DNA from: Ehretia macrophylla
Taxonomy: Eukaryota > Streptophyta > Magnoliopsida > Boraginales > Ehretiaceae
Assembly (NCBI GenBank): GCA_037974665.1
Contig: CM075773.1
Span: 65,392,263-65,456,262, forward strand
Direction of reading: 5' to 3'
DNA length: 64,000 nucleotides
The position numbers and the translations under genes are program-made. Positions 1,640 to 62,170 of the stretch are shown here, piece by piece (the stretch's first letter is position 1; every line of letters starts with the position of its first letter). Below the pieces are notes generated by a model. The model worked only from the letters and a program-made list of their open reading frames with translations, was not told where the DNA came from and searched no databases.

Positions 1640-4102
1640 TGTAACGCCCCGAACCCAACCCCACGCTAATAGTTAGGCTCGGACTCGTCACTCGGACAGA
1701 GTCTCCCCTGTACCAAGGACAAAACTGATACCTGTCAACATTCATTCAAGACATCTAAACTAAAAACAACAACTTATCAACAATAACTCCAAGCCAAAAC
1801 ACAATCACAAGGCCATCCGAGCCTTGGAGCAACAATATTCTACTAAAGCACACAAGCATGCGAGATAAGTTGGTTTTAGTCATAAGTAATTAAATACAAT
1901 AAAATTCTAAATTCCATATGAAGATTAACAAACACTCCAAGCATGCAAGGGAAATTAAAGTCTAGAATTCATTATTACAATCCAACAACTTTCTTTAACA
2001 TCTTAGTACACATCTACTAGACATATATATACAAGACTCCAAAGTCTCAAAATACATTAATAACAAGAACTCCACGCAAGAAGCACATAAAATCCACCTC
2101 AGCACACAAGATCACTGATTCTGATCTACTTGAACTTCTTCTTCTTCTCCTATTTCTAACAGCTGGGGATTCACCTCAGCTTCTCCTAAAACATTTCAAA
2201 TGAGGAGTGAGCAACAAAGTTGCCCAGCGAGGGAGGTGATGCAGCATGCCAACGTGCAATATGATATGCAACACAAGTAAACATATATACAAGCCACATA
2301 AACTAACAAGACAATAAGTCAAACTATTAATCACTTTAAAAAGGATACGGTTCCACTTCCAAGACTCCATCCACGAGCCACGATCCATGAGCATCACGAA
2401 TATGCCGGCAAAACCCAAACACCACAATTGGGATACTCCGGATGTATCCCGATCCTACGACCCTTTTTCCCGAGGTAGGTCCATGCCCAGCAGGTGAACC
2501 ACGCCTCTGGGGTAGTGGAGTATGCCTCAGCGAGAAAGGGAATAGGCACCATGGTAGTCGAGGGAGCACGGCAAGCCCGATGCCGCCCGTGTTTCTCGAC
2601 GCTATCATGTCCAATATAGGTTGCGCAACCCAATACAAGTCACAAACAATCAATATATCACATAACACGTAAAAGGGACGACAAAGTAGGCCGCCCTCAC
2701 ATATATGCACGATAAAAGTTCATATATGCACGATATTAACTAATAGATGCCAAAAGAAGCAATCAACACAATTAATTCCAATAATCTACTCAAATAACTT
2801 AAATAGATCCTAAATATTCAATGCAAAGCATTACTAACACACAACAAGTTCCAATTACAACTAAAAAGGCTAAAAACTACTTTTCCCCTTTCTTTAACCG
2901 AGCTTTCTTTCTCCTAAGCATGGTTCGAGATTCCCAATCATACCCTAGTCTTTCTATATTCCTAATTAAGCTCAAAGGTACCCTTTAAAGTCACTAAAAC
3001 TCATTTTTTGAAGCAAAAGTTCTGGAAGGCCCCGAACGGGTTTGAACTATAGCCATACTAACCGAACCCCAATTTCGCGAAACGAAAGCACCAAAGGTGC
3101 TTCCTTAGCTCAAGGATACCCAAATCGATGCCCAAATTTGCCCGGATTGCCTAACGTGCAAAACCCCCTTTTTAAAGTAAGCTATTTATGCACTAAAGTT
3201 CAAATTCGAGTGATTCAACTAAACGTGGCTTTTCAATTACCTTCTCTAGGGTCTAGAGCACCTAATTGAGGCATCAATTCAAGGCAAATAGCAAATTTTC
3301 TCAAAACCCTAGTTTTAGGCACTATTCATCACCTCTTTGATCAATCTCAACATTCAACCATTAACTATGTTATCAAACCTCAAAAGTTAGCTCTAGAGAC
3401 TTTAAATAACTCATAGGAAGCATTCATAACAAGATATATAGCTATAATTGGCAAATCAAGAAAATTAAACATATGCACATAAACTTTAAACTCAAGAAAA
3501 TGAGACTCCCTCACAATTTTGAAGATGGAGAAGCTTTGTTGAAGGTCCTAAGTTGCTCAAAATCCTCCCAAGATCAATCTAAGAGCCCAAAGTGCAAGAT
3601 TGAAGAAGCAAAATTTCTCCTCTTCCTCCTTGAAGTGGACGGCCAGCTAGGGGACATGGATGGAATTTTTGCAATTGTTTTGTTGACAAGAATAAGCTTA
3701 TGTTTTAATTTAGTAAGTTGGCTAATATTATATGTGGTGCATGACTAGATAATGTAATCTAATTAGTCTCTAATCTTGATCAACTAATGGCTAATTGAAA
3801 TTCCAAATGCTTTTAATTTAATACTAGCACTATTCTAACGTAACACTATTCAAAGCTCACGGAAAATATTTTTCAAACGCATACTCCTAAGCTCGAAAGT
3901 TCAAAACAAAAATTTCTTGGTTCCTTTTAAATGTCGAGTGACCTAGGAAAAATTTAAAATCAAGCTTTCGAAACAGTCGAAAATATTATGAATAGTAACT
4001 CACAATAAAAACAATTAAACAAGAAAAATGATGCACGTAGAAATGCGCACATAAGTATGTAACGATTATAATAAATTTAGGGTGAAATTCTCGGGTGTCA
4101 CA
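1640..4102 (-). repeat. Element B 3' LTR (left copy)
   Basis: Nearly identical to 9124-11585. In element sense it starts next to the polypurine tract at 4103 and ends at 1640. It carries a donor-like GTGAGG near 3507, hairpin 1 at 2674-2698, a GC-rich module at about 2436-2640 and hairpin 2 at 2209-2225. Confidence 0.95.
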
Positions 4103-4138
4103 CCCTTTCCTCCTTAAACTAATTGCGTCCTCGCAATT
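4103..4138 (-). other. Element B polypurine tract and preceding palindrome
   Basis: On the minus strand the palindrome AATTGCGAGGACGCAATT (4138-4121; seven-base arms, AGGA loop) is followed by a purine run GGAGGAAAGGG that abuts the LTR. This is the plus-strand primer site of an LTR element. The same palindrome precedes the polypurine tracts of D and E, and a variant precedes that of A. Confidence 0.85.
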
Positions 4139-4525
4139 CTTACATGATTCGGCAAAGAGCTCCGGATACTTCTCTCTGATCTGATCTTCTCGCTCCCAAG
4201 TGGCATCCTCAACCCCATGATGATCCCAGAGAACTTTTACCATAGGAATATTTCTAGTCCTAAGTTCCTGAATCTTTCGGTCAACCACTCGAAGAGGTTT
4301 CTCAACATAAGCTAAGGACTCATCAATCTCCAACGGCTCCGGCTCAATGATATGCGACGGATCAGGATTATACTTTCTCAGTAGTGATACATGAAAAACA
4401 TCATGAATCCGACCCAAACTCGGAGGTAAGGCCAATCTGTAAGCTAAATCCCCAACTTTCTCAGTGATCTCAAATGGTCCCACGTATCTAGGATTAAGTT
4501 TACCTCCTTTGTCGTGCCGAATCAA
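4104..4525 (-). pseudogene. Element B integrase C-terminal / chromodomain-like segment
   Basis: The reading contains the R-H-D-K-G-G-K-L-x-P-R-Y-V-G-P-F block of Gypsy integrase C-termini, then V-F-H-V-S-L-L-R-K-Y, and ends with K-V-L-W-D-H-H-G and A-T-W-E followed by a Y-P-E-L-F tail. That tail is the shape of the Tekay/Del-type chromodomain, thought to steer integration to chromatin. The reading runs into the polypurine tract and LTR. Part of the broken pol region. Confidence 0.85.
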
Positions 4526-4609
4526 ACCTTTTCACGGAGAGACTTTCAAGAAAACATGATCACCCTTAGAAAATACTAAGTCTCGTCGACGTCTATCAGC
4601 ATAATTCTT

Positions 4610-4960
4610 CTATCGACTCTGAGCTGTAAGCATCCTTTTCTTTATAAGTCTCACATTATCTACCATTTTAATCATCTCCGGAAGAATAGATGGATCAATT
4701 GTTTTCATCTCACCTACCTCATCCCAATACAACGGAAACCGACATTTTCGCCCATAAAGTGCCTCGTAGGGTGCCATGCCAATAGTGGCCTGATAACTGT
4801 TATTGTAAGCAAACTCTGCTAAAGGCAGATATTTCTCCCAATTCTTGCCAAAATCCAAAACACAGGCTCTCAATATATCTTCCAGTATCCTGATAGTCCT
4901 CTCTGACTGGCCATCCGTCTGCGGGTGATAAGCAGTACTAAAACTCAAATTAGTCCCCAA
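4610..4960 (-). pseudogene. Element B integrase core, distal part
   Basis: Shows the Gypsy integrase signature [15 protein letters not shown] with the catalytic glutamate, then E-F-A-Y-N-N-S-Y-Q and [10 protein letters not shown]. It follows the long pol reading in order. Part of a pol region with a few breaks. Confidence 0.88.
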
Positions 4961-5020
4961 AGCCTTTTGTAGTTTCTACCAGAACTGTGATGTAAACCTG
5001 GGATCCCTGTCTGACACTAT

Positions 5021-7855
5021 CTAAGATGGAACTCCATGCAGTCTCACAATATTTTCAACATAAAGCTCGGCCAATTTATCGAGAGAATCTGTTTTCTTTG
5101 TAGCAATAAAATGCGAACTCTTCGTCAACCTGTCTACTACAACCCACACCGAATCATTACCTCGTGGTGATCTCGGTAAATCCGACACAAGATCCATAGT
5201 AACCTGATCCCATTTCCAAACCGGAATCTCCAACGGTTGCAACAATCCTGCTGGCCTCTGATGCTCTGCCTTAACTTTCTGACAAGTCAAACATTTAGCT
5301 ACATACTCAGCTATCTTTCTCTTCATGTTGTTCCACCAGAAATTCTGTTTCAAATCTCTATACATTTTTGTGCTTCCAGGATGAATCGTGTATTTAGAAG
5401 CATGAGCCTCAGCAAGAATCTTATCTTTCACAGTCGAATTACTAGGAATGCAAATTCTGTTCCTGTACCTGAGAAGTCCATCATCATGCATCTTAAAGTC
5501 GGACTCTCCCCCTTTTGACTTCTCTAAAAGCTTCAATAGCTGAGAATCTGATTGTTGCACTTCTCTGATTCTAGATAGCAATAAAGATTTGATTTGTAAA
5601 CTAGCAAATTGAATACCTGATCTAGAAGCTTTCGGTTTCCATAAGCACAGTTCTTCCACAATCTCCCAATCCTTGATTATCAAACTAGACACAGAAGCTT
5701 TCCGGCTCAGTGCATCTGCAACAGTATTAGCTTTTCCCGGCAAATAGCTAATGGTACAGTTATAATCATTTAACAGTTCTAGCCAACGCCTTTGCCTCAT
5801 ATTCAAATCTTTTTGAGAAAACAAATATTTCAAGCTTTTATGGTCAGTAAATATTTCAAATTTGTTGCCCCACAAATAATGCCGCCATTTCTTCAAAGCA
5901 AAGACAACAGCTGCAAGCTCCAAATCATGTGTAGGATAATTGAGTTCATATGGTTTCAATTTCCTAGAGGCATATGCTATGACTTTACCATTTTGCATCA
6001 AAACACAACCTAACCCTTCTTTCGAAGCGTCACTATAAATCACCAAGTTCTCGATTCCCTCAGGCAAGGCAAGGATAGGTGCAGTGGTAAGTCGCTTTTT
6101 CAACTCCTGGAAACTAGCTTCACATTTATCATCCCAATTAAACACAGTTTTCTTCTGAGTTAAAGTAGTCAAAGGTCCTGCAATCTTTGAAAAATCTTTA
6201 ACAAATCGCCTATAATAGCCCGCTAGTCCCAAGAAACTACGGACTTCCGTGACAGTTTCAGGTCTCTTCCACGACATAACTATATCAATTTTAGCAGGAT
6301 CAACAGATATTCCCTCCTGGGAAATGATATGACCTAAAAAGGCAACCTGTTTCAACCAGAATTCGCATTTGCTAAATTTGGCAAACAACTTATGTTCTTG
6401 CAGGGTTTTAAGTACAATCCTCAAATGCTCTTCATGCTCTGACTCAGACTTAGAGTATACTAATATATCATCAATAAAAATCACCACAAACTGATCAAGA
6501 TAGGGTCGAAATACCCTATGCATCAAATCCATAAAAGCGGCTGGAGCATTTGTCAACCCGAATGGTAACACAACAAACTCATAATGGCCGTACCTGGTTC
6601 TAAATGCAGTCTTAGGTACATCCTCTTTCCTGATCCTCAACTGATAATAACCCTGCCTCAAATCAAATTTCGAAAACACAACAGCACCTTGTAGCTGATC
6701 AAACAACTCCTCAATTAAAGGCAAAGGATATTTGTTTTTCACCGTTACCTGATTCAGACCCCGATAATCTATACACAAACGCAGAGTACCGTCTTTCTTT
6801 TTCACAAATAACACGGGAGCACCCCACGGTGACGAACTAGGCTGAATAAAACCTTTCTCAAGCAAACCCTGAAGCTGAATTTTCAATTCTTGTAACTCAG
6901 GGGGAGACATTCTATACGGGGTTCTCGAGATAGGACTAGTTCCCGGCAACAGGTCAATCACAAATTCAATCTCCCTATCAGGTGGTAACCCAGGCAACTC
7001 TTCAGGGAAAACCCCCGGAAACTCTTTTATAATAGGTACTTCATTCAATTTCAATTTATCTCCAGGCTGATTAATTAAATAAGCTAAATATGCATCATAG
7101 CCTTTACTCAACATTTTAGTAGCTTTAATGGATGATATAATACGAGTCCCAGTAGACTTTCGACTCCCAGTTACTTTAATAACAGGTTGGTTAGGTACTT
7201 CTAAAGTCAAAACTTTCCTTCTACAGTCCAAACATGCATAATATCGCCCCAACCAATCCATCCCCAAGATAACCTCAAAGTCTCGAAATGGCATGATAAT
7301 CAAATCAATAGGATACATGCAACCCTCAATGCAAATATTACAATCCTTACATACAGACCCCGTAACAAATTTAGTTCCCATAGGATTACCTACTTTAATC
7401 ACATACGGCAGTTTATCAACTTTTAATGTAGCAGACTGTGCACATGCAGGTGTAATGAATGAATGTGTAGCCCCGGTGTCAATCAAAACTACTACCGGTT
7501 GACTATTAATAAGAAAAGTACCTTCCACCACCACTGTAGTCTCTGGAAGCTCCTCCTGGTCAAGTGCAAATACCCGTGCCTGACCTCGCGGTACGGTAGC
7601 TGCTCCTGAAGCCCTAGTCTGGGCACCCTGGCCTGAAGTCTGACCCTGACCAAATCTAAACTTGGAACAATCCCTAACTCTATGCTGATCACTGCCACAA
7701 CCTATGCAACGACCCAGTTTCCTCCAACACTCAGCCTCTGTGTGACCCTTACGGTTGCAATGAGTACACTGGAGATTCTTCCTAGCAGCAGTTCCTCCTG
7801 TAGGGGCCCTATAAGTAGATGTGGTAGAACTACCCTGCTGAGATCTAGCAGTCAC
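5021..7855 (-). CDS. pol: Element B pol: zinc knuckles, protease, RT, RNase H, start of integrase
   Basis: A 944-codon open reading. Residues about 30-63 hold two CCHC-like zinc knuckles (end of gag). The aspartic protease motif D-T-G-A-T-H-S-F is at about 126-133 and the partner block I-L-G-M-D-W near 196-201. Reverse transcriptase follows, with Y-R-G-L-N near 364, F-D-L-R-Q-G-Y-Y near 397 and the catalytic F-I-D-D-I-L near 460. RNase H shows the S-D-A-S block and F-T-D-H-K-S-L. The integrase zinc domain ends in C-L-T-C-Q-K-V-K. The integrase core begins with V-D-R-L-T-K-S-S-H. Domain order PR-RT-RH-IN is Ty3/Gypsy. The reading is part of an element with breaks elsewhere. Confidence 0.93.
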
Positions 7856-7978
7856 TGGTTGGGTCTGTGACTGTCCCTGTGGCTGGCTCTGAGCTGGTCT
7901 CGGCTGTGACTGTACCTGAATTGGTCCTGGATAGCTCTGAGTCTGTCTAGGCTGCTGAGTCTGAACAGGCTGCTGATA

Positions 7979-8815
7979 CTACCTATGATAACCCTGACTC
8001 TGAGACTGAAACTGACGTTTGCTTGATTGACTAGATTGAGCTAACACATCTGCCTTACGTTTCTCATACCTCGATGCAGCCCGGACTACTGCAGCATAGT
8101 TCGGATAATCTTGCGAAGACAAGTTAAGCATGATGTCACTCCTCAACCCTGTAATAAATCTCTGGATTTTCACATCCTCCGGCTGAACTAAAGCTGGCAC
8201 ATATCGAGATAGTCTCGTAAAGGTAGCCTCATACTGGTCTACAGTCATGTTCCCCTATTTCAAAGCTATAAACTCATCCTGATGTCTCTCACGGGCTACA
8301 ACTGATACATATTTATCTCGAAACTCATGAACAAAATCAGCCCATACATGCTGAACCCTCTCAGCATCCCATTTTTCTCTAATAGTGCGCCACCAAGCCT
8401 CGGCATCACCCTCCATTAAAAATGCAGCACAAGTGATCTTTCTTTCATCGTCACACTCAAGTATCGCAGCAACTTTCTCGAATTTGCTCAGCCACAACTC
8501 TGCTTTCATATCATCAGGCTCACCATAAAAACTATAGGCTCCGTGATGCAGGAATTTATCAAATAAGTTACCTCCTGCAGTACCACTGCCCTCTGCTCTG
8601 GCAGTCTGATTACCTCTGTCGGCACCTGCTGTACCCTGCTGAACCACAAACTGTGCTATGGTATTCATCGTAGTAGCCATAGTAGCTAAAATCTGGGCAG
8701 TGCTCGGCTCCTGACCCTGCTGTACATTCCCGGCTGCCCCAGCATCCTGCCCCGGTACATTCTGTCTAGGAGCCTCCTCCGGCTCACCCCGTGGTCTACC
8801 CCGTCTCCTCATCAC
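7979..8815 (-). pseudogene. gag: Element B gag
   Basis: The N-terminal part begins at 8815 with an arginine-rich start. It contains the plant retrotransposon gag core: G-E-P-D-D followed by A-E-L-W-L-S-K-F-E-K, a C-A-A-F-L-M-E-G-D-A-E-A-W-W block, then F-R-D-K-Y. The C-terminal part has F-I-T-G-L-R-S-D-I and a basic Q/S-rich linker leading to the zinc knuckles of the next reading. In a live element this would form the particle shell. The region has a break. Confidence 0.88.
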
Positions 8816-9104
8816 AATGCTAGAAGAACATCATATTATAATAGGCAAATAAACTATGCAAGATAATTTACACATTGTTTTCAAACATTTTACTCACATA
8901 AGAACACATAAAACACTTAACAACATTCAATACTAACTTTTCATATTCTTATCATATTAAGTTTTATCATTCATTTTCATGCTAGCATGTCTTATATCTA
9001 AGTACTTAAACAACTAAACACGTACATATTCACATAATTCACTTTCACATATAGACCTCTACCCACATGCCAAGGAATTTAACCCGGCTTCAAGCATTCT
9101 AGTA

Positions 9105-9116
9105 GCTCTGATACCA
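9105..9116 (-). other. Element B primer-binding site
   Basis: On the minus strand, TGGTATCAGAGC lies seven bases inside the LTR at 9124. It is complementary to the 3' end of plant initiator Met-tRNA, the usual minus-strand primer of Gypsy and Copia elements. Confidence 0.93.
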
Positions 9117-9594
9117 CTTAAGATGTAACGCCCCAAACCCAACCCCACGCTAATAGTCAGGCTCGGACTTGTCACTCGGACAGAGTCTCCCCTGTACCAA
9201 GGACAAAACTGATACCTGTCAACATTCATTCAAGACATCTAAACTAAAAACAACAACTTATCAACAATAACTCCAAGCCAAAACACAATCACAAGGCCAT
9301 CCGAGCCTTGGAGCAACAATATTCTACTAAAGCACACAAGCATGCGAGATAAGTTGGTTTTAGTCATAAGTAATTAAATACAATAAAATTCTAAATTCCA
9401 TATGAAGATTAACAAACACTCCAAGCATGCAAGGGAAATTAAGTCTAGAATTCATTATTACAATCCAACAACTTTCTTTAACATCTTAGTACACATCTAC
9501 TAGACATATATATACAAGACTCCAAAGTCTCAAAATACATTAATAACAAGAACTCCACGCAAGAAGCACATAAAATCCACCTCAACACACAAGA

Positions 9595-9668
9595 TCACTG
9601 ATTCTGATCTACTTGAACTTCTTCTTCTTCTCCTATTTCTAACAGTTGGGGATTCACCTCAGCTTCTC
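9595..9668 (-). other. Acidic short reading after an acceptor-like AG in element B's LTR
   Basis: Immediately after TTTCAG on the minus strand, a reading starts with G-E-A-E-V-N-P, continues through a run of glutamates and ends at a stop before the LTR end. The solo LTR of the same family (40660-40733) keeps the frame. Of six differences I see, four are silent. No in-frame start codon is visible, so translation, if any, would need an upstream exon. Confidence 0.4.
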
Positions 9669-9691
9669 CTGAAACATTTCAAATGAGGAGT

Positions 9692-9708
9692 GAGCAACAA
9701 AGTTGCCC
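9692..9708 (-). other. LTR hairpin 2, family B
   Basis: On the minus strand, GGGCAAC / GTTGCTC pair across a TTT loop (seven pairs including one G-U). The upstream flank is CCTCGCT and the downstream flank ACTCC. Sister copies are at 2209-2225 and 40757-40773. It lies about 20 bases before the acceptor-like AG. Confidence 0.65.
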
Positions 9709-10155
9709 AGCGAGGGAGGTAATGCAGCATGCCAACGTGCAATATGATATGCAACACAAGTAAACATATATACAAGCCATATAAGCTAACAAGACAATAA
9801 GTCAAACTATTAATCACTTTAAAAAGGATACGGTTCCACTTCCAAGACTCCATCCACGAGCCACGATCCATGAGCATCACGAATATGCCGGCAAAACCCA
9901 AACACCACAATTGGGATACTCCGGATGTATCCCGATCCTACAACCCTTTCTCCCGAGGTAGGTCCATGCCCAGCAGGTGAACCACGCCTCTGGGGTAGTG
10001 GAGTATGCCTCAGCGAGAAAGGGAATAGGCACCATGGTAGTCGAGGGAGCACGGCAAGCCCGATGCCGCCCGTGTTTCTCGACGCTACCATGTCCGATAT
10101 AGGTTGCGCAACCCAATACAAGTCACAAACAATCAATATATCACATAACACGTAA

Positions 10156-10181
10156 GAGGGACGACAAAGTAGGCCGCCCTC
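10156..10181 (-). other. LTR hairpin 1, family B
   Basis: On the minus strand, GAGGGCG pairs with CG(U)CCCUC, seven pairs with one bulged U, around the loop GCCTACTTTGT. Sister copies are at 2674-2698 and 41220-41245. The loop is shared with families A, E, F and H although the stems differ. Confidence 0.65.
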
Positions 10182-11741
10182 ACATATATGCACGATAAAA
10201 GTTCATATATGCACGATATTAACTAATAGATGCCAAAAGAAGCAATCAACACAATTAATTCCAATAATCTACTCAAATAACTTAAATAGATCCTAAATAT
10301 TCAATGCAAAGCATTACTAACACACAACAAGTTCCAATTGCAACTAAAAAGGCTAAAAACTACTTTTCCCCTTTCTTTAACCGAGCTTTCTTTCTCCTAA
10401 GCATGGTTCGAGATTCCCAATTATACCCTAGTCTTTCTATATTCCTAATTAAGCTCAAAGGTACCCTTTAAAGTCACTAAAACTCATTTTTTGAAGCAAA
10501 AGTTCTGGAAGGCCCCGAACGGGTTTGAACTATAGCCATACTAACCGAACCCCAATTTCGCGAAACGAAAGCACCAAAGGTGCTTCCTTAGCTCAAGGAT
10601 ACCCAAATCGATGCCCAAATTTGCCCGGATTGCCTAACGTGCAAAACCCCCTTTTTAAAGTAAGCTATTTATGCACTAAAGTTCAAATTCGAGTGATTCA
10701 ACTAAACGTGGCTTTTCAATTACCTTCTCTAGGGTCTAGAGCACCTAATTGAGGCATCAATTCAAGGCAAATAGCAAATTTTCTCAAAACCCTAGTTTTA
10801 GGCACTATTCATCACCTCTTTGATCAATCTCAACATTCAACCATTAACTATGTTATCAAACCTCAAAAGTTAGCTCTAGAGACTTTAAATAACTCATAGG
10901 AAGCATTCATAACAAGATATATAGCTATAATTGGAAAATCAAAAAAATTAAACATATGCACATAAACTTTAAACTCAAGAAAATGAGACTCCCTCACAAT
11001 TTTGAAGATGGAGAAGCTTTGTTGAAGGTCCTAAGTTGCTCAAAATCCTCCCAAGATCAATCTAAGAGCCCAAAGTGCAAGATTGAAGAAGCAAAATTTC
11101 TCCTCTTCCTCCTTGAAGTGGACGGCCAGCTAGGGGACATGGATGGAATTTTTGCAATTGTTTTGTTGACAAGAATAAGCTTATGTTTTAATTTAGTAAG
11201 TTGGCTAATATTATATGTGGTGCATGACTAGATAATGTAAGCTAATTAGTCTCTAATGTTGATCAACTAATGGCTAATTGAAATTCCAAATGCTTTTAAT
11301 TTAATACTAGCACTATTCTAACGTAACACTATTCAAAGCTCACGAAAAATATTTTTCAAACGCATACTCCTAAGCTCGAAAGTTCAAAACAAAAATTTCT
11401 TGGTTCCTTTTAAATGTCGAGTGACCTAGGAAAAATTTAAAATCAAGCTTTCGAAACAGTCGAAAATATTATGAATAGTAACTCACAATAAAAACAATTA
11501 AACAAGAAAAATGATGCACGTAGAAATGCGCACATAAGTATGTAACGATTATAATAAATTTAGGGTGAAATTCTCGGGTGTCACATAGAGGGATTATGAT
11601 TTGAGTTCTTGCATGTTCTTGAGCTTGATTATGTTGTCTTGTAAGCCTTGTGGGTGTTCTAGGTGCTTAGCTAAGGGTAGAAGCAAGACAATGAGGTTGA
11701 AAATCAAAAGTGGTGAAAATTCCCATTTTTGGTGCAACTCC

Positions 11742-11933
11742 TGATTGATCAGGAATAAGGTCTGATCGATCGAGCACTGTTCATCCCTTGTCCTCTGCCC
11801 TATCGATTAGTTGCCTTCTCCGATCGATCGGACAGGGTGCCCGATCGATCAGCCACTTTGACCGATCGATCGGACAGAACACTGATTTTGTTTTCATGTC
11901 ACCCGATCGATCGAGAATCTTCTCTGATCGATC
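11742..11933 (+). repeat. Cluster of GATCGATC palindromes in element A's LTR
   Basis: Exact GATCGATC occurs at 11764, 11822, 11843, 11864, 11905 and 11926, with decayed versions near 11743 and 11801. The 3' LTR has the same cluster at about 18987-19175, with partly different sites intact. Comparing the two LTRs points to eight ancestral sites in under 200 bp. Intervening sequence is not a tandem repeat. Confidence 0.88.
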
Positions 11934-12305
11934 GGGAAGTCTCTTTTTCGAAATATTAGCTTGAGATAATTGGTTTTATGTGGTCGTATGATGCCTATCA
12001 CTTGGCCAATGGTTTATATTATGAAAATGACTTAGGGAGGCATTACATAGATCCCAAACTTCTCACTTCTAAGGGCACTTTATATCAATGCAATGTAACT
12101 CGTTATAAATTTATATGCAAGAAGATTATATGAATACTCATTATGCCATTGATTATTCATTTATTACCAATGCCTCGTTTACTCTTGTTTAGCTTGGTAA
12201 TTGGAGGCAACCTCCTTAGTTGATCTTCATATGCTTGTTTATATGTTTCATGAACCTACTTGGTCTTAATTGGAATTTTAAGATGTTCACTTGCTATATG
12301 TGGTT

Positions 12306-12330
12306 GGGGGCAACCTACTTTGTTGCCCTC
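12306..12330 (+). other. LTR hairpin 1, family A
   Basis: GGGGGCAA pairs with TTGCCCTC (eight pairs including one G-U) around the loop CCTACTTTG. The 3' LTR copy is at 19549-19573. It has the same loop as families B, E, F and H with a different stem. Confidence 0.65.
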
Positions 12331-12746
12331 CCTTTCATGTTGATGCATACATTTTGCTTACCATGTTAATAATTACGGGTGTGACGATTGCAACCACAAT
12401 TATGGGTATAATAACGTTCGTTTCCCCTAGGTAGCATAGGGCTACCAGTCGGTCTCAACTACCATGGTCCCCGGTGTATATCCGGATATCACTTAATGTT
12501 TAGAGTTGGGGAAAAATGGATAAGGACTGAATCAAGGCCAGCTGTCTCCTGCAATTAAAACTGTATCCTTTGGTAAATTGTAAATCTACCTTGGCTTGGT
12601 CCCTTGAGGAACTCAGAAGGCAGAGCCACGTGTTATTACTGGTTCATTATTTCATGTACTTATTCGTTATTCATGCATGGCATGCTTTCTAAATGGTTTT
12701 GAAAGATCAAAACTCTTGCAAAAATCCCCTTCCCGTTATCCCTCAT

Positions 12747-12767
12747 TGAGCTAAGTGGTGTAGCTTA
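12747..12767 (+). other. LTR hairpin 2, family A
   Basis: TGAGCTA pairs with TAGCTTA across AGTGGTG. The upstream flank is CCTCAT. The 3' LTR copy (19991-20009) has GAGCTA/TAGCTC. It sits about 20 bases before the acceptor-like TTTCAG. Confidence 0.6.
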
Positions 12768-12790
12768 CCCTTTTCATGATAATATTTCAG

Positions 12791-12870
12791 GTGAGGGCAC
12801 GCCTGAGCCAACAGCTCAAGCCGAAGGCGAGACTTATTTGTGTGACGAGTCGAACTTCTGCTTGTTGTGA
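12791..12870 (+). other. Acidic short reading after an acceptor-like AG in element A's LTR
   Basis: After ATTTCAG a reading with G-E-G-T-P-E-P, then a Q-A-E-G-E-T-Y stretch and C-D-E-S ends at a stop at 12868-12870. It uses the same codon phase relative to the AG as the readings in families B and H. No start codon is visible. The 3' LTR copy is near 20041-20113. Confidence 0.35.
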
Positions 12871-13231
12871 TCCTGCTTGCTTGTATTGTTAAATTTTTGG
12901 ATGTTATAACCTATGTTAAATTGAACAATTTCAAGTACTGTACTATTCTTTTGGATGTTGGATTGTAACCTCACTACTAGTCTATTCTTTTGAGGCCTAG
13001 AATGCATTGATGTTTGTAGCATGACTGAGGTTGAAGTTAGGCCTTGTATATATATGAAGCAAGTTAATGAATGTTATAGTACCGTTAGATCGAGCACCTT
13101 TCTTGAAGTTACTTGCGAAAATAAATGTCTAGGGTATAAATTGATGATTGTACAAGTTTATCTATTTAGTACACGTCATGTTTTGGCCTTGTCCTAGAAA
13201 TGGGTCAGGGTCGGGGCGTGACACCCTTAGG

Positions 13232-13243
13232 TGGTATCAGAGC
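13232..13243 (+). other. Element A primer-binding site
   Basis: TGGTATCAGAGC, complementary to initiator Met-tRNA, eight bases after the LTR end at 13223. Confidence 0.92.
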
Positions 13244-13574
13244 TAGCCCAGGCTAGCGAATGTCCGAGTTTAAAAATATGGTTCGTAGGTAGATACCCTA
13301 AATAGGAACATACCGCTTAAGAAATGTTTTGAATTACTTATACATTAACGTGACTTATGAGTCTGTATGCGAATAATATGTGCTCATATGTGGTATTTGT
13401 TTCTTGTTAATGTGAAGATTATATGATTAAGTATGGCCATAATCTATACTATACCAATATTAATTTATCCATAATCATTCATATTAGAAGTAACTATAGG
13501 ACATGTATTCTTATCTCATATCATAATGCATGCGTATTATATCACTGTGAGTGGTTCATATGTTATTTTTATAG

Positions 13575-14640
13575 ATGGCAGGTTGTAATACCCATGCAAA
13601 AGCCGGAGCACAAGGAACGGGGAATACCGACCCAGTCAAGCCAAGGATAGCTATGTTCAATATGACGGCAAATGCGATAGATCGTATGAGTAGGGTAATG
13701 GAGCAACAAGTAAACAATACTACGGGTAATAATAACAATAATAACAATAATGGTGGTGGCAACAACAACAACAACCCCTAAGGTAATGGAGATGATACCT
13801 TGAGAGGCTATCTAGGGTATGGACCTTCTAAATTCTTGGGTGAGCTTGACCGTGAGAAGGCGGAGGCTTGGCTTGCCAACGTAGAAAATATTTATGTTGC
13901 TATGGACTATACCGATGAGAAAAAAGTAGCCTTTGCAACTTTCTTGCTAGAGGAGGATGCGGAGGAATAGTAGAGAAATGAGAAGACTCGTTGGAAACAG
14001 AATGGCATCCCAATAACATGGGTTAACTTTGTGGAGTCCTTCAAAGGCAACTATGTGTCGGATATGGCTCGAGAGAGAAAAGAAGAAGAGTTTCTGTTTG
14101 TGAGTCAAGGAAGCTTATCTGTGATACAATATGAAGCCCGATTCAACAAACTCTCCAAGTACTTGCCGAAGTTGGTCCAGATAGAAAATAGGAGGATCAA
14201 ACATTTTATTCGAGGACTAAGGCCCGAAATTCATGATTTTCTTGCATCTCACCGTTTCGCTACTTATGCCGAAATGGTTGATTCGGCGACATGAGTTGAG
14301 AAGAGGATATTAGATACTCGTGGGGGACCGAGTCAAGTGAGCAAAAGGCCAATGTTGTCACAAGCACCTCAGAGATTATACTCAACCTAGAGTCAAGCTT
14401 CGAGTCAAGCTAGATCAGCCCCTACTCGACCACAGTTGAGTGCCTCAATCACTCAATTGGTCAGTGGTTCCTCAAGTAGTGCTACTATTGCCAAGAATAT
14501 TGTGTGCAACTATTGTAGTAAAACGAGGCATGTTGAGGCCCAGTGTTAGAGAAAAATGGGTAAGTGTTTGGGGTGCGAAAGTGATCAACACTTAGATAAG
14601 GATTGTCCGAAATGGTGAAACAGAGGTGCACTGAATGAGG
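13575..14640 (+). pseudogene. Element A gag remnant
   Basis: Starts near 13575 with an N-rich, (AAC/AAT)n-encoded asparagine tract at 13724-13778. It continues with a recognisable gag core (A-E-A-W-L-A-N-V-E, then L-E-E-D-A-E-E) and the D-M-A-R-E-R-K block. It ends in a zinc-knuckle region (C-N-Y-C ... G-C-E-S-D-Q-H) near 14500-14610. Broken in several places. Confidence 0.82.
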
Positions 14641-14678
14641 CCATTGGAAATGCACCAGCGCAGAGAGTTCATGCCCGA

Positions 14679-17600
14679 GTGTATGTTGTTGATCAAGAGG
14701 AGATTCCCGAGGCTACAGCAGTGGTTGAAGGTACTTTCTTAATTTTACAACAATTAGTAAATGTGCTTATTGATCCCGGAGCCACGCATTCCTTTGTTAC
14801 CCCCCAATGTGTATATCGTATCAAGTTGCAAGTAGGACCTTTATCATGTCATGTAGAAGTTAGCAGTCCCATGGGCACCAAGCATGTTTTTAAGTATGGA
14901 TATAAAGGGTGTAAAATTCAAATAAAAGGTGGGGGATTTTTGGCCGATCTCATTGTACTTCCTTTTCAAAAATATGATGTTGGTTAGCTCGGAATTATGC
15001 CTAATTGGATTGCCGTACGAAGATTGTGAAGTTTCAGGTAGTGCTATGATGTCCTCGATCAAAGCTATGAAATTAATGAGGAAGGGATGCAGTGGATACT
15101 TGGTTTATTTAATTAACAAGCCAACTGATCAGGCTAAGCTCGTAGAGGTGCCAATGGTGAATGAATATGTGGATGTGTTTTCGGAAGAATTACCGGGATT
15201 GCCACCAAAAAGGGAGATTGATTTTGTAATTGAGGTATTGTCAGGTACTCAATCCATCTCGAACGCACCATATCGGATTGTCCCGATTAAATTGCAAGAA
15301 TTGAAGACTAAATTGCAAGGATTATTAGAAAAAAGGCTTTGTTCAACCTAGCTCATCTCCTTTGGGAGCCCTAGTATTGTTCATGAAGAATAAAGATGGC
15401 ATATTGAGGCTATGTATCGATTATCGAGGATTGAATCATGTGATTGTTAAAAACAAGTATCCCTTGTCATTGATAGATGAGCTGTTTTATCAGTTACAAG
15501 GAGCCAAAGTTTATTTGAAGTTTGATTTGAGTCAGGGTTATTATCAGCTTCGCATCAAGAAGGAAGACGTGCCTAAGTTAGCTTTTAGAACAAGGTACGG
15601 ACATTATGAATTTGTTGTGATTCCGTTTGGACTAACGAATTCTCCTACTACCTTTATGGACTTAATGCACAGGGTGTTCCAACCTTACTTGGATCAATTC
15701 ATGGTGACATTCATAGATGATATTTTGGTGTATTCTAAGACAGAGAAGGAGCATGAGAGACATCTACATTTGGTGTTACAGAAGTTGCGAGAACATCAAT
15801 TGTATGCCAAGTTCAGTAAATGTGAGTTCTGCCTTCAACAAGTTGCTTTCTTAGGGCATATAATCTCCCAAATGGGGATAGCAGTGGATTCCTCAAAGAT
15901 TAAAGTGGAGCAAACGTGGAAGAAGCCCGAGAGTGTTACGAAAGTGGGTAGTTTTCTTTGGTTAGTCGGGTACTACATGAGATTTGTGAAAGACTTCTCA
16001 AAAATTGCAGGACCCCTTACAAGATTGACACAAAAGAAGGTGAGCTTCACATGGGATGGTAAGTGTGAAAATAGCTTCCAAGAGTTGAAGAAGAGATTGA
16101 CAACTACTCCTATCTTAGTATTGCCTGAGGGAAGCCAAGGGTTTGTCATTTATAGTGATGCTTCGAATGAGGGATTAGGATGTGTTTTGATGCAAAATGA
16201 TTGGGTAATCACTTATGCCTCTCATAAATTGAAGCCCTATGAGGTGAATTACCCCACTCATAACTTAGAGTTGACGGTGATAGTATTTGCATCGACAAAG
16301 TGGAGACATTACTTGTAGGGAAGCAAGTTCGAGATTTTCACCGACCACAAGAGCTTAAAATACTTGTTCTCCCAAAAAGAATTAAATATGAGACAACGGA
16401 GATGGATGGAGCTCTTGGAGGACTACAATTGCACCACCAACTATGTGCCTAGAAAAGCTAATGTGGTGGCAGATGCGTTGAGCCGAAAAATAAGCTTGGC
16501 AAAGGTAGGGGTGAATGCTCATCTAATGATTCAATCGGCATTGTTATCTCAAATCAATGAACCTCAACAACAAGATCCACAATTTCAGAAGATAAAATGA
16601 GACAATCAGGATTTCAAACAACAAGACAGATTATGGAGATTTCAGAATCGGGTTTGTGTATCGAATGACCCAGAATTGAAGAGAAAGATACTTGAAGAAG
16701 CTCATAATACAAGGTACACAATACATCTTGGAGGAACGAAGATGTATCGTGATTTGAGACAATTCTATTGGTGGAACAATATGAAATAGGAGATTGCAGA
16801 TTTGTGTCATGTTGTTTGACATGTCAAAGGGTTAAGGCAGAACATCAAAGACCTACAAGACTTTTGCAACCTTTAAAGATTCCACAATGGAAATGGGAGC
16901 ATGTAACCATGGATTTCGTGACAGAATTGCCGAGGTCACCTCGAGGCTGTGATACTGTTTGGGTAATCGTGGATCGATTGACGAAGACAACCCATTTCGT
17001 CGCAATGAATAAGACGGATAGTTTGGAGAAGCGAGTCGATTTGTATATAGCTAATATTGTGAAGTTGCATGGTGTTCCTGCGAGCATAATATTGGATAGA
17101 GACCTAAGGTTTACATCTCGGTTTTTGCAAAAATTTTAAGAAGCTTTGGGAACGAAGTTGAGCTTCAGCACGACCTACCATCCTCAAATAGATGGGCAAT
17201 CCGAGAGAACTATACAAATCTTGGAAGACATGCTAAGAGCTTGTGCATTAGATTTTGGAGGGACGTGGGAGAAACATTTGTCGTTGGCAGAGTTTGCCTA
17301 CAACAACAGTTACCAAGCAACAATTGGCATGGCACCTTACGAGGCTTTGTATGGAAGGAAGTGTAGATCACCTCTATATTGGAATGAGATCAGTGAAATA
17401 AAAGCCATTAACCCTACATTTTTACCGAAAATGATGGAGAAGATAGATAATGTGCGGTTGATCCGAAAAAGAATGCTTACCGCTCAGAGTAGGCAGAAAC
17501 GCTACGCCGATAGAAGAATAAGAGACTTGGAGTTTGAAGTGGGTGATAAGGTGTTTTTGAAATTGTCTCCACGGAAAGGGTTTATTAGGCATGACAAAGG

Positions 17601-17937
17601 TGGCAAATTAAGTCCAAGGTACGTAGGACCGTTCAAGATTGTTGATAGAATTGGCAAATTAGTATACCGGTTGAGTCTACCAATAAATCTCTCCGGTATA
17701 CATGATGTGTTCTATGTCTCAATGTTAAGAAAGTATCAACCCGACCCTTCTCATATCTTGGAGCCAGAACCGCTACAACTTCGTGAGAACCTCTCCTATG
17801 AAGAAATGCTCGTGAAAATTTTAGATGAACAAGAACGGGAGTTGCGTAGAAAGAAGATTCCTATGGTGAAGGTATTATGGAACAATCATGGAATCGATGA
17901 AGCAACTTGGGAGTTATGGGATCAAATGGATAAGTAA
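14679..17937 (+). pseudogene. Element A pol remnant (protease, RT, RNase H, integrase, chromodomain-like tail)
   Basis: Protease remnant near 14770 (L-I-D-P-G-A-T-H-S-F). Reverse transcriptase is recognisable at 15362-16318, with [14 protein letters not shown] and F-I-D-D-I-L. RNase H runs through about 16600, integrase zinc and core at 16768-17139, and integrase C-terminus at 17146-17937 ending in A-T-W-E. Gypsy order, same lineage as B. Broken in many places. Confidence 0.88.
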
Positions 17938-17966
17938 TATTCGGGGTTGTTTTCAAGGTAAGAAGA

Positions 17967-18001
17967 AATTGCAAGGAAGCAATTCTTTTAAGGAGGGAAA
18001 A
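17967..18001 (+). other. Element A pre-tract palindrome and polypurine tract
   Basis: AATTGCAAGGAAGCAATT (six-base arms) followed by AAGGAGGGAAAA against the 3' LTR. It is a variant of the palindrome seen before the tracts of B, D and E. Confidence 0.8.
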
Positions 18002-31928: not shown

Positions 31929-31949
31929 GAGTATACAACATGTATACTC
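31929..31949 (-). other. LTR hairpin 2, family E
   Basis: GAGTATAC and GTATACTC pair perfectly (eight pairs) around a five-base loop. The flank on the element strand is CCCTCACT. The right LTR copy is at 48696-48716. Family D has the same stem with a longer loop. Confidence 0.65.
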
Positions 31950-32396: not shown

Positions 32397-32422
32397 GAGG
32401 AACGACAAAGTAGGCTGCCCTC
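32397..32422 (-). other. LTR hairpin 1, family E
   Basis: On the element strand, GAGGGCAG and CGTTCCTC flank the loop CCTACTTTGT. The outer five bases pair, including one G-U; the inner part is looser. The copy at 49164-49189 has GAGGGTGG, which restores inner pairing. Confidence 0.55.
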
Positions 32423-43017: not shown

Positions 43018-43040
43018 GAGTATACGTGTTGTGTATACTC
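43018..43040 (+). other. LTR hairpin 2, family D
   Basis: GAGTATAC / GTATACTC, eight perfect pairs around GTGTTGT. Preceded by CCTCACT and followed by ACTCC, then TTTCAG. The 3' LTR copy is at 47495-47517. Confidence 0.65.
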
Positions 43041-48232: not shown

Positions 48233-51200
48233 TGTAATGCCTCGATCCCTCACGAGACCAGATGCTCTAATAGCCATGCTAATCACAATCCAATTTCAAC
48301 CCGGTCACAAAATTTAAGGAAAACGGACGGAGTTTCCCCTATTTATAGGACTATTTGGAAACCTGTAAACTACAATATACAACCACAAGACCATAATCCA
48401 CAACTTCAATATGTTTCATCCCTATCAGCATACAAGTCAACTAAATGGAAGAGTAAACAATTAAAGTTATTACAAACCACTAGCACCTAACTATCACCCA
48501 AGACTAAAACTTTAATATTACATTTCTTAAGATAACACAAATACATACATGACCATAAGGTCTCAAATAGTATACAGGCATATAAGGTACACATTCTTCC
48601 TTGTTCTACACGCTAATAGAGCAGACAGGCTACACATGAGGCAATCCCATTTCCAACTTATAGCACTGATCCTGAAAGGTTTTAGAAACGAGGGTGAGTA
48701 TACAACATGTATACTCAGTGAGGGAGGTGATGCAGTAAACTGAGGAATGCTTTCATAAGATGCAACAAGAATAATAACATATACAACACAAAATAACAAA
48801 GTCAATTAGATAAGTATTTAACCACGTATAAAAAGGATACGGTTCCATGTTTGTCTTCAATCACGAGCCACGAGCCAAGATCTTCAAGCAAGTGTCGGCA
48901 AAATCCTTACTCCTCCAAGTTGGGGTACTCCGGATGTACCCCGATCCTACGACCCTTTCTCCTGAGGTAGGTCCATATGCCGAGCAGATGAACCACGTCT
49001 CTGGGGTAGTGGAGTATACTCAGCGAGAAAGGGAATAGGCACCATAGTAGTTGAAGGAACACGGCAAGCCCGACGCCGCCCGTGTTTCTCGACGCTACCA
49101 TGTCCAAAAAGATTGCACAACCCCGAACAAGATCACGAGAGCCAATAATATCAAATCACGTAAGAGGAACGACAAAGTAGGCCACCCTCGCAATTAATCA
49201 CAAATAACAAGAAAAGACACAATATGGCAAGTAAATAATACATATAAACTTTATTAGTTACCAAATAATATAATCTAGAAATAATAAAATAAGTTAAAAT
49301 GCACAGAAAATATGAAGACTCCCTCACCTTTACCAAACCTGTAAGGGTATAGCTTAGACTTACTCCAAACCTCTTTGAATCTGCTCAAATGTGCAAACCC
49401 CTAGTTATTCATATAAGTGTAACACTTTAGCAATTGACTATAGGAGGTTTAACAACTATCTTCCACATCCAAGAATCTTTATTACATGCTTTATTTCATT
49501 GTAACTTAATTAAACTCCATAGCTTTGGAACAACATAGAAGCATTTACTAATATATAAGGTTAAGCTAACTACAACTAACCAAAATTGTACTTAACATAT
49601 AAACTAAATGCCAACTGTACAAGTGGACTCAACGAACATGCATGAGTTAACATCTTTACATTTAATTTACATTCTAATTAATTCTTCAAACATTCAATAC
49701 AAGTTTTCAAGTGCAAAGTTAATATTGCAAACTCAACTAAGACATCTTCCAATTCCTCTAACAGAAGCTTAATTTAATCAATTCGGTTACCTAGGCTATT
49801 GACCTCCAAACTATCTGATTTTTATGTATAATCGTAGCTCTTCGAGTTTAGTTAATTTTAGTTTCAAATGGTTCTCAATTCCGAGTTAAATTCCAAAAGT
49901 TATAACCCTTACCGCACAACCACGCATAGCTGGGCAGAACCAGCGATTTTTTAGCTACATTTCGGAAATGATGTGATCAGAGGGCTAAAACGTTATAATT
50001 AGCCTTAGTCCTAGAAATCAACATTTGCTCTACACTACCTAATCTAGCTTCTGTACAAATTTCATTCAATTCTAAGTGCATTTACTATGTCAAAACGGCT
50101 CTAGAAGATGGCGATAGTGAACTGCCCAGACAGGGTATCCACACACACATGCACATTTCTTGCATTGAACTAACTATGAGCATTATACTAGCATGTGACA
50201 CAATCCTACACTTCATTTAGGACATTAAACAAACACCTTAGCTATTACTACAAAATTCCAATCAAGTTTTACTAGTTGCAACTAAAATCACAACCAACAT
50301 CCAAGATACAAGTAATACAATGTCAAAAGTTTACTCTATATCATCATAAGGTAATATAGAAAGCATTGGAAGCAAGAAACGCAAGACTATAAACAATAAA
50401 CATGAAATTAACCATCGGTGCACAAAGGGGATCAACAACATACTTTCACAAAATTTCACCAATAGCTCAAATATGCTATAGAAATACATTTAAACACACA
50501 ATAACCAACTATAAGGCAATACAAGCTATAAAACACCCTATTATCTCATTTCCCCCTTTGTTCAACTAGACTATTTAGCTTCCTACCGAAATTTAAGGAT
50601 CAAGTTAAGCTAGCTAACCATCCTACCAATCTAAAGATACCTAAATACCTCATTTAGAACCTCCAAATCATAACCTAGAACACCAGTACACGAAAACACC
50701 GAAAATACCTCTTTGTGAGTTTATATTACAAGTACCAATTCCGGAACCCAAACAAGCAAAACGAAGACACTTCTACTACTTCAATACTTAATAAAGACTT
50801 GTCATAACCTCGAAACGTGCCCCAATTCGAGTTAATCCTGAAACCCCTTATTAAAGTAACCTAATTTGATCAAATTATTCAAAATTTGTACATGGCAAGT
50901 GCAACTAACATGTTTTCCATGCTCAAGAACCTAATTAGCAACTACTAGAATCCTCAAATCGAATTAAATTGTAACTTTTTTTCGGAACCCTAGTTTGGCA
51001 CTATTTATCATATTCCTCATGAGATTTTTGCTAAAAACACTTAGTTTCAAGCTATATAATTACATAAGGATGTTCTCTAGCATATAACAATATCATATCT
51101 AGCAAGAATCAAGCAATTTATAGCACAAAACCTCAAAATTTGAAAATATGAAATAATGTCAAGAAACTTTAATTAGCTAAAATGGTACATATCCCTCACC

Positions 51201-57690: not shown

Positions 57691-57704
57691 TGCAAGTGGG
57701 AGAT

Positions 57705-59135: not shown

Positions 59136-59184
<49 letters not shown>

Positions 59185-59960: not shown

Positions 59961-59965
59961 CTAGA

Positions 59966-60753
59966 ATGGTTGAATGCACAAATCAAATGAAAGAGACAAT
60001 GAATAGTGCCTAAATCTAGGGTTCTGCTTTAAGTTGTTATTTGGATTGAATTGATGCTACCTATAGGTGCTTTAAATGTTATTAAAACTAGTTAAGTGCT
60101 CATGTGTAGTTAATTTGCCTGAAATTGAGTTAAAATGCGAATTAGCTAAATTTTCAAAAGGGGGTTTCCATGAAATGTAATCTAGGAACTTTTGGACTTT
60201 AGATTAGGTATCCATGGGGGCATAGAAGCACTTTTGTTGCTTTCGTTGCATTAAATTGGGGTCCGGATATGGTAGTTATAGTTAAAACTCACTCGGGGCC
60301 TTCCTGAGCCTTTGTCTCCAAAACGGGTTTTCAGGGCCTAGGTAGATGTCGTTTGGTTTCCTTTGAAATGTAGATTGATTGGTTTATGGATTTGGGACCT
60401 TGAATTTCATATAGAAGAATAATTGCATAGTTATATAAGGGGGAAAAGTGATAAATGGATACTTTTGTACTTGTACGAGCGTGTAGAGGTTTTGTTAAGT
60501 GTTTACATACTTGTTTAAGGTATAATCAAATTAATTGAAGAGTTTTTGGAAAAGTATGTTATTTACCTCTTTAGTGTTTATATCGTTATTTCGTGTTCAA
60601 TGACTTCTATTACGACTAACTGCGAGTGCGGCCTACTTTGTCGTCCCTTTTATGTGATATTTGAAAATCTTGGCTCTCGTGAACTTGATTCGGGGTTGCG
60701 CAACCTATTCGGGCATGGTAGTGTCAAGTAACATGGGCAATGATGGGCTTGCC
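59966..60753 (+). repeat. Element F LTR, second segment
   Basis: Continuation of the LTR begun at 28082. Contains GAAGCACTTTTG-like and GGGGCCTTCC blocks shared loosely with the LTRs of D and B, hairpin 1 (60624-60649) and the TTGCGCAACC / GGGCATGGTAG start of the GC-rich module. That module is cut off at 60753 by element H. Confidence 0.65.
60624..60649 (+). other. LTR hairpin 1, family F
   Basis: GAGTGCG and CG(T)CCCTT flank GCCTACTTTGT; the inner CG/CG and several outer pairs form, with one mismatch. The loop is identical to that in families B and H. Confidence 0.5.
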
Positions 60754-62143
60754 TGTGAAACCCCACTTTCTTACTTATCTCGTTTTACGTGTTATACCTT
60801 GTTTTACGTGCATATGATCTGTTTATGTGCTATAGGACCTAGAAAGTTATAATTTTGATGTCAATACTCCTAATACGTGCTAAATGTGCATTCATGAAAT
60901 TTTCATCAAAAACGGAGTCATAAATTTTATCGTCGATTTTCAGTGAATAGTATTTTCGAAACACGTCCGCTAAAATTTTGAAACTGGTCTTTTTAACCCT
61001 TCTAGACCTAGTCAACAGACTTTAATAGACCTGTGTTTGATGAAAACGGTTTTAAAATCGGCTTAAGAATTTATTAGGGTTTTTACACTGACTTTTGCGA
61101 AAATCGAGTTTTAAGCCGACTCGGGTGAAATTGTTTGATTGTAAAACTTCTTGTCACCTAAAAATAATTTACTTGAGCTATATTGGGTGTGGAATAATTG
61201 TTTTGAACCTTGGTGATCAAGAAAATGCAATTAAAGTCAAGAAAACACAAAAATACTAACTTAAACTACTTTGACTTTGCATTTTTTTTAATTGACTAAG
61301 CTTTTAATTATATATTGTCATCAACACACACTCAACACAACACAAAACACACTCAAAAAAACACATAGGAGGCCGAGAGGGAGAAGAGAGAAAAAGAAAA
61401 GAAATTTCAAAGCTTTTCAATCCAATTTTTCAAAGAGAAACCTAGTTTTTGTCCGTAGAACTTCGCACCGACTTGGATTCTGCTTGTTGGGCACGCATAG
61501 CACGCATTCCTAGGCTTATATCGCATCAAAGGTGAGAGAAAAATTCTAGATCTCAAAATGTCATTTTTATACTTTTGCTCATAAATGAAAATTTAACCGT
61601 TAGAATTGAAAACTAATGATAGATTATTGCTCCTTGCATGCAAGGGATCATTTTGATGCAATACTACGAATTTCTGTCGGATGTAGCATAATTTTTATTT
61701 TTCGGGTATTTAATTTTGATTAAAATGTTTAAAGTTGAATTAAATGAGTTGTGTTGATCGAAATCGATTGCCGTCAATTTCTAAATACTTGAAAATTACG
61801 TGTTAGCGCTGTTGTAATGCCGAATTTTCGATTACATTGTTCGTGTGAAAATCCGGAAAATCCAGCCAAGACATCCTAGGGTTTTAGGGTTATCGGGCAT
61901 GATTTGGAGGTGTTATGGTGGATTTTCGAGAGGGCTAATGTAGTAGGTTGAATGGGTGAGTGATAGAAACTGATTTGGCAATGTTTGGATTAGTAGATTG
62001 TAAGTTATGAATTTTAGAAGTTTAGGTTGTCATTCTTTAATTTCTTGAACGATGCCTTTAGATGGTTGGGTAGTGTTTGAGTGTTGAATGGTGAGTTGTT
62101 GATGAGTAATTTAGGGTTTAATTGTGTATATAATGCATGTCCG

Positions 62144-62170
62144 GTTAGATGGCCTACTTTGTCATCTAAC
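62144..62170 (+). other. LTR hairpin 1, family H
   Basis: GTTAGATG and CATCTAAC pair perfectly (eight pairs) around GCCTACTTTGT. The solo LTR copy is at 34399-34425. This is the clearest member of the hairpin 1 set and its stem shares almost nothing with the stems in A or B. Confidence 0.75.

Follow-up and report, generated by a model that had tools for sequence, protein, structure and literature searches.

In retroviruses, structured cis-acting RNA lies in or near an intron of the leader, so that only unspliced RNA carries the packaging signal. Large parts of plant genomes consist of the long terminal repeats (LTRs) of Ty3/Gypsy elements, which are usually regarded as featureless beyond a promoter and a poly(A) signal. 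Here we describe a small hairpin, hairpin 1, that recurs in such LTRs within a 64,000-nucleotide stretch of Ehretia macrophylla DNA (assembly GCA_037974665.1, contig CM075773.1, positions 65,392,263 to 65,456,262, forward strand; hereafter the window). Self-comparison and boundary reading resolve the window as a nest of plant-type LTR retrotransposons, whose families are lettered here. We firmly conclude that hairpin 1 is under selection and folds in the sense RNA, with a heptaloop that never varies, and it likely sits in the 3' part of a putative LTR-borne intron recognized from sequence signals. Retroviral packaging signals and leader donors are alike in linking structured cis-RNA to an intron, but the putative intron here lies wholly inside the LTR, and packaging is a candidate role.

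Among retrotransposons, structured RNAs serving full-length unspliced RNA are described for the mouse elements IAP (RTE) and MusD (MTE) in a 2025 host-factor review, with an export pathway that differs in plants (PMC12786077); the likeness to hairpin 1 is one of proposed role, not of sequence or structure. Ogre, EVADE and BARE1 have spliced and unspliced RNA pools according to published accounts (PMC6317226, PMC12786077, PMC3735527), and their introns lie in the coding part (the gag-pro/reverse transcriptase gap or the end of gag), whereas the putative intron here is in the LTR. Plant LTR retrotransposons are otherwise given as generally without introns in the same review (PMC12786077). Dimerisation and packaging signals of BARE are mentioned in PMC3735527; they too are cis-RNA of a plant LTR retrotransposon, but BARE is a Ty1/copia element. 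Tekay/Del chromoviruses share the domain order, primer-binding site (PBS) and long LTRs of the present elements, but no LTR hairpin of this kind was found for them in the open-licence literature searched. That literature, which leaves out most subscription papers and so allows for a prior description, contained no account of hairpin 1.

An invariant loop with a pairing stem

The motif CCTACTTTG has 10 matches in the window against 0.43 expected, a number reached in 0 of 100 shuffles, and all 10 lie inside LTRs or an LTR fragment (F), always in the sense orientation of the element. When one LTR was taken per family (A2, B2, E2 and H2), CCTACTTTGT was the sole 10-mer common to the four, while 100 Markov-shuffled LTR sets shared 0.03 10-mers on average and 2 at the largest. 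Apart from B with E, the LTRs of these four families align in short patches only. Each match contains the loop of a hairpin; the loop is 7 nt long (CUACUUU), closed by a C-G pair and identical in 10/10 copies, which are as follows (shuffle P refers to folding energy against shuffled flanks).

2673..2698, minus strand: LTR copy B1, 9 pairs with one 3'-arm bulge
10156..10181, minus strand: LTR copy B2, 9 pairs with one bulge, shuffle P 0.037
41220..41245, minus strand: solo LTR B3, 9 pairs with one bulge
32397..32422, minus strand: LTR copy E1, one A-C mismatch, weak, shuffle P 0.55
49164..49189, minus strand: LTR copy E2, G-U rich, weak by energy, shuffle P 0.71
60624..60649, plus strand: LTR fragment F, one T-C mismatch, weak, shuffle P 0.76
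12306..12330, plus strand: LTR copy A1, 9 contiguous pairs, shuffle P 0.0085
19549..19573, plus strand: LTR copy A2, 9 contiguous pairs, shuffle P 0.003
34398..34426, minus strand: solo LTR H1, 11 contiguous pairs, shuffle P 0.0115
62143..62171, plus strand: LTR copy H2, 11 contiguous pairs, shuffle P 0.0125

An initial annotation had reported one constant loop in LTR copies of families A, B, E, F and H, and we confirmed all of its sites; its text counted nine copies and its list ten, of which ten is correct. Rfam returned 0 matches at the gathering score across the whole window on both strands.

Across the stem (pairs p1 to p9 in ten copies), 88 of 90 cells hold standard pairs, 73 Watson-Crick and 15 G-U, the others being one A-C and one further mismatch; this count allows B, E and F a single unpaired U in the 3' arm. 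Both partners have changed in six of the nine pairs (p4, p5, p7, p8 and p9 in H; p3 in A), which bears out the earlier statement that the differing flanks still pair. G-U outnumbers A-C by 15 to 1, or by 7 to 1 once p2 is set aside, its U being part of the invariant motif. An A-C on one strand reads G-T on the other, so this excess points to the sense RNA as the folding strand. A DNA-level element, whether a protein-binding site or a cruciform, would suit an invariant 10-mer flanked by an inverted repeat, but in a cruciform G-T would be no more favourable than A-C, and we regard such an element as extremely unlikely. Of the RNA or cruciform structure first proposed, the selected RNA is thus retained on the strength of the both-sided changes and the invariant loop, and the DNA cruciform is not.

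Compared with random genomic flanks, contiguous stems were as long with P 0.0007 (H), 0.0015 (A), 0.005 (B and E2), 0.03 (F) and 0.5 (E1); when a bulge was allowed anywhere, P was 0.003 (H), 0.005-0.010 (A), 0.010 (B and E2), 0.07 (F) and 0.84 (E1). Folding energies surpassed those of shuffled flanks in A (0.0085, 0.003) and H (0.0115, 0.0125), with B borderline (0.06, 0.037, 0.049). All of these comparisons come from one window of one genome and carry no phylogeny correction. The B and E LTRs share a block of 78% identity and B and F one of 67%; since the B, E and F stems are homologous, there are about three independent stem lineages and not five. The covariation initially claimed for at least five families therefore holds as to both-sided change but not as to independence, and comes mainly from H. 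A single CG-like position in the 5' arm distinguishes E1 from E2, a difference that ordinary methyl-C decay may explain.

Shared ancestry without selection, in which the LTR families inherited this stretch and its decay is still to come, would account for the clear homology of B, E and F and for the small number of stem lineages. Beyond B and E (and F), however, little of the LTR sequence can be aligned, yet every copy has the same loop and the H stems pair fully with other letters, which makes this explanation very unlikely.

The loop has also been kept across families whose Gags have diverged, as H and B Gag share only 41% identity over 157 residues. This somewhat favours a host reader of the loop over Gag, and bears on a packaging or Gag-binding signal independent of any intron. 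Sense RNA, an invariant loop and a position in the LTR would all be expected of such a signal; we nevertheless think it unlikely in light of the Gag divergence, a loop without G, unlike zinc-knuckle targets, and a hairpin position that follows the acceptor-like site described below. Homodimerisation by loop kissing is unlikely as well, because CUACUUU is not self-complementary. A kissing partner within the element, AAAGTAG, was considered and rejected: it occurs upstream in B and in a wobble form in A, with none in E, F or H over the range examined. Among the roles listed initially (dimerisation, packaging, Gag binding, polyadenylation, splicing), the anatomy set out next favours splicing and unspliced-RNA biology.

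A putative intron within the LTR

Downstream of hairpin 1 lies a second hairpin, the hairpin 2 of the initial annotation. All 11 copies examined, from A, B, E, G and H, have it, with 7-11 pairs of differing letters on a shared TGRG...YTYA base. Random stretches have 3 inner pairs in 6% of cases and at least 6 in 0.35%, so the A copies, which hold 3, are unremarkable alone. The acceptor-like pattern CTCACYC-N15-24-CAGG has 9 matches against 0.13 expected, every one just past hairpin 2. It thereby accompanies 9 of the 11 hairpin-2 copies, the exceptions being B1 (TTTTAG) and A1 (CTTACCC).

9691..9709, minus strand: hairpin 2 of B2, 8 pairs, 3' arm ending CTCA; also B1 at 2208-2226 and B3 at 40756-40774
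48695..48717, minus strand: hairpin 2 of E2, 10 pairs; also E1 at 31928-31950
19990..20010, plus strand: hairpin 2 of A2, 7 pairs; also A1 at 12747-12767
62635..62656, plus strand: hairpin 2 of H2; also H1 at 33868-33889
47494..47518, plus strand: hairpin 2 of G2; also G1 at 43017-43041, G being without hairpin 1
9669..9694, minus strand: acceptor-like site of B2, with branch-point-like CTCAC, tract and CAG

From the motif to hairpin 2 the distance is 433 (A), 463-464 (B), 464 (E), 482 (H2) and 527 nt (H1), a wider range (433-527 nt) than the 440-490 first given. The acceptor-like site follows the motif at 476 (A2), 503-504 (B), 509 (E), 527 (H2) and 572 nt (H1). The main block of B-E similarity (B2 LTR positions 1402-1919) spans this module, starting at hairpin 1 and reaching the acceptor (1917), with weaker blocks elsewhere. 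A coding explanation of the module was rejected, as the B-E alignment has 1- and 2-base gaps by inspection. As a whole, the module folds only mildly better than shuffles (z -2.55 in B2, -2.24 in H2 and -1.62 in A2).

Two further features lie in these LTRs. The word RTATCCTTT stands between hairpins 1 and 2 in A, B, E2 and H2 (2348, 9831, 40895 and 48840 on the minus strand; 12563, 19806 and 62507 on the plus strand). Another short hairpin, with a partly kept GCATAGGGC-like loop (RYVTNGGGY) and differing stems of 4-6 bp, is present in A, G and H (12430-12446, 19673-19689, 40159-40175, 47098-47114 and 62331-62347 on the plus strand; 34213-34229 on the minus strand), with a related form of shorter or shifted stem in B and E; its pattern was drawn up after seeing the sequences and is not counted as evidence.

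Upstream of the motif are donor-like sites. AAAGGTGAG has 5 matches against 0.61 expected (A2, E1, E2, H1 and H2), all in LTRs and all upstream of the motif, and G and B have counterparts.

18782..18790, plus strand: donor-like AAAG|GTGAG of A2; variant AAAT|GTGAG in A1
32556-32564, minus strand: donor-like AAAG|GTGAG of E1
49323-49331, minus strand: donor-like AAAG|GTGAG of E2
35032-35040, minus strand: donor-like AAAG|GTGAG of H1
61528-61536, plus strand: donor-like AAAG|GTGAG of H2
46108..46116, plus strand: donor-like TAAG|GTAAG of G2; TAAG|GTGAG in G1
10992..11001, minus strand: weak donor-like AATT|GTGAGG of B2; the same in B1 and B3

At position 863 of the B2 LTR (about 10723 of the window, minus strand) there is also a donor-like AAG|GTAATTG, shared with B3, that outscores the positionally homologous B donor. 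The motif follows the donor-like site by about 147 to 825 nt, a variable spacing compared with the 476-572 nt to the acceptor. Together, the donor-, branch-point- and acceptor-like sites suggest an intron wholly inside the LTR, of 0.66-1.43 kb, in five families; its putative length would be 1248 (A2), 1329 (B2), 656 (E2), 1428 (G2) and 1149 nt (H2). This placement of hairpin 1, upstream of an acceptor-like site and with donor-like sites further up, was not part of the initial annotation. In a ranking with rough splice-site matrices, donor and acceptor both came first in A2, H1 and H2, as did the donor in G2. In four of five families, A2 being the exception, the putative intron is richer in T (0.35-0.40) than the 250 nt that precede the donor, and G2 and H2 have no ATG in those 250 nt. 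Signals of a spliceosomal intron are enriched and positionally consistent, yet the B donor is weak and the T-content and ATG results are mixed.

Our leading reading, held tentatively, is that hairpin 1, in the LTRs of several chromovirus-like families, works in cis as sense RNA: on the unspliced transcript it may act in intron retention, export or packaging, both the splicing and the function being inferred. Hairpin 1 would lie in a partly structured stretch of about 0.5 kb that ends with hairpin 2, a branch-point-like sequence and a CAG acceptor, and the intron would be spliced from the R/leader part of the LTR. A factor reading the invariant loop could then act on the unspliced transcript by restraining splicing, by exporting the RNA or by letting Gag select the genome. 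Such an element must protect the unspliced pool, because a transcript spliced inside its LTR cannot regenerate a full LTR.

A number of results speak against this reading. The folding energies of E1, E2 and F (0.55, 0.71 and 0.76) are no better than those of shuffled flanks. The covariation signal comes mainly from H, since exchange of the whole 3' arm between B and A leaves 26 of 27 pairs, so that the arms are almost interchangeable, and 6 of 120 arm permutations among five representatives equal the observed 44 of 45 pairs. Similarity of F to B extends upstream of hairpin 1 as well. By matrix the E2 sites rank fifth, the B acceptors fourth, and the B donors and the G2 acceptor fall outside the top six. 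In the 300 nt after the acceptor the T content equals that of the intron in A2, is higher in B2, E2 and H2, and is slightly lower in G2. ATG occurs before the donor at 8 (B2), 28 (E2) and 40 (A2) per kb and after the acceptor at 16.7-63.3 per kb, richer than the intron in four of five families; because the stretch past the acceptor is T-rich and ATG-rich, splicing would yield no clean Gag leader. If the poly(A) site falls past the acceptor, spliced RNA would hold the hairpin in its 3' R and the hairpin would be a weaker mark of unspliced RNA. A scan of G for long-stemmed loops within 2 mismatches of CTACTTT found no hairpin 1, although hairpin 2, donor and acceptor are there; because G carries intron signals without it, hairpin 1 is not required for the intron as such. 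The sole locus outside this genome with an LTR end and PBS (L003, described below) lacks the motif in its 1.2 kb of LTR, which may count against wide conservation of hairpin 1.

The same anatomy would also allow for splicing control only, in which hairpins 1 and 2 set the efficiency of leader-intron removal, or the way in which that intron enhances expression. A host splicing factor would recognize the pyrimidine-rich loop, and the hairpins would play no part in the choice of genome. The kept acceptor spacing, the branch-point-like CTCAC in which hairpin 2 ends, and a loop unchanged while Gag diverges, which fits a host reader, all agree with it, but G retains acceptor and hairpin 2 without hairpin 1; we see it as a lesser but real possibility. 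Alternatively, the hairpin might control polyadenylation as part of a structured long R region, like the R structure of human T-lymphotropic virus 1 (HTLV-1); this would draw on the TTGTA- and AATAA-like plant poly(A) words about 90-330 nt past the acceptor in five LTRs. These uncontrolled word matches are over 500 nt away from hairpin 1, T-rich DNA commonly contains such words, and this role appears highly improbable.

Host elements, outside loci and significance

Returning to hairpin 1 as a candidate mark of unspliced RNA, the elements that carry it, together with their neighbours, are arranged in the window as follows.

11586..20467, plus strand: element A, the part right of the B insertion; 3' LTR 18004-20467, 5' LTR split into 773-1639 and 11586-13223
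1640..11585, minus strand: element B, probably chromodomain-type Ty3/Gypsy; LTRs 1640-4102 and 9124-11585, inserted in the A 5' LTR (1639/11586)
48243-51774 and 31476-33438 + 35791-37369, minus strand: LTRs of element E, the second interrupted by solo LTR H1
33439 to about 35793, minus strand: solo LTR H1, inserted in the E LTR
38616-40193 + 42651-43662 and 45554-48140, plus strand: LTRs of element G, the first interrupted by solo LTR B3
40194-42650, minus strand: solo LTR B3, inserted in the G LTR
57705-59960, plus strand: LTR of element D, whose other LTR is split by E
about 59961-60753, plus strand: F fragment, cut by element H
60754..64000, plus strand: element H, truncated where the window ends; LTR 60754-63192, PBS at 63199, Gag from 63487

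Nesting is deep (1640-11585, 31476-51774 and 38616-48140), with B in an A LTR, E in a D LTR, G inside E, B3 in a G LTR, H1 in an E LTR and H2 in F.

Protein domains were compared for A, B and H. B encodes Gag, protease, reverse transcriptase (RT), RNase H, integrase zinc-binding and SH3-type domains (PF03732, PF08284, PF00078, PF17917, PF17921 and PF24626), and its chromodomain (PF00385) scores 21.9 bits (E 1.7e-4), under the curated cut-off of 25.1. A has PF08284, PF00078, PF17919 and PF24626, with rve below cut-off only, and a profile search of its proteins found no chromodomain; H shows Gag alone, since the window ends there. The Ty3/Gypsy order of Gag, protease, RT, RNase H and integrase was found in the hairpin-carrying elements tested. 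In A, B, E, H and D the LTR is followed by a PBS, TGGTATCAGAGC, which we take to be of Met-initiator type. Tekay/Del is suggested as the host clade by the domain order, the PBS and the length of the LTRs. D is probably Ty1/copia, and has neither hairpin 1 nor hairpin 2. About 50 nt past the PBS, the word GTGGGTARAGG occurs in B (9056-9066, minus strand) and H (63245-63255, plus strand) against 0.05 expected, and E, G and A have looser versions of it (GGGTAG or GGTAG); it may be a second donor site or belong to a leader signal.

Relatives were also sought in sequence collections. The viral contig collection gave none by RT piece, RT alignment or two-hairpin pattern. In the genome contig collection, the B RT piece found six loci (L001-L006), all in bacterial assemblies, and these Ty3/Gypsy RT contigs are apparently contamination; the genome of L005 has 19 RVP_2 matches, which suggests a eukaryotic contaminant. 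A motif search of the six genomes gave one match (L007), without a stem and apparently in a bacterial gene, and a Pfam search added 20 further loci. The resulting 27 loci (102,073 bases) contained no CCTACTTTGT match beyond L007 and no acceptor pattern. RT searches gave 3 distant matches in plasmids and none in phages or E. coli genomes. No LTR of this region from other plants was present in the collections searched (viral, genome, plasmid, phage and E. coli).

More broadly, and as a doubtful proposition, a widespread plant Ty3/Gypsy group may carry an intron in its own LTR, with hairpin 1 tagging the unspliced genomic pool apart from the spliced pool; each successful copy would then have escaped splicing at both ends, as a plant counterpart of retroviral leader logic. 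RNA export of plant elements has not been directly studied, according to the 2025 host-factor review (PMC12786077). If true, a kept hairpin together with an LTR intron would provide a handle on how these elements divide their RNA between translation and replication, and CCTACTTTGT with its stem would serve as a sequence tag for finding and dating such LTRs.

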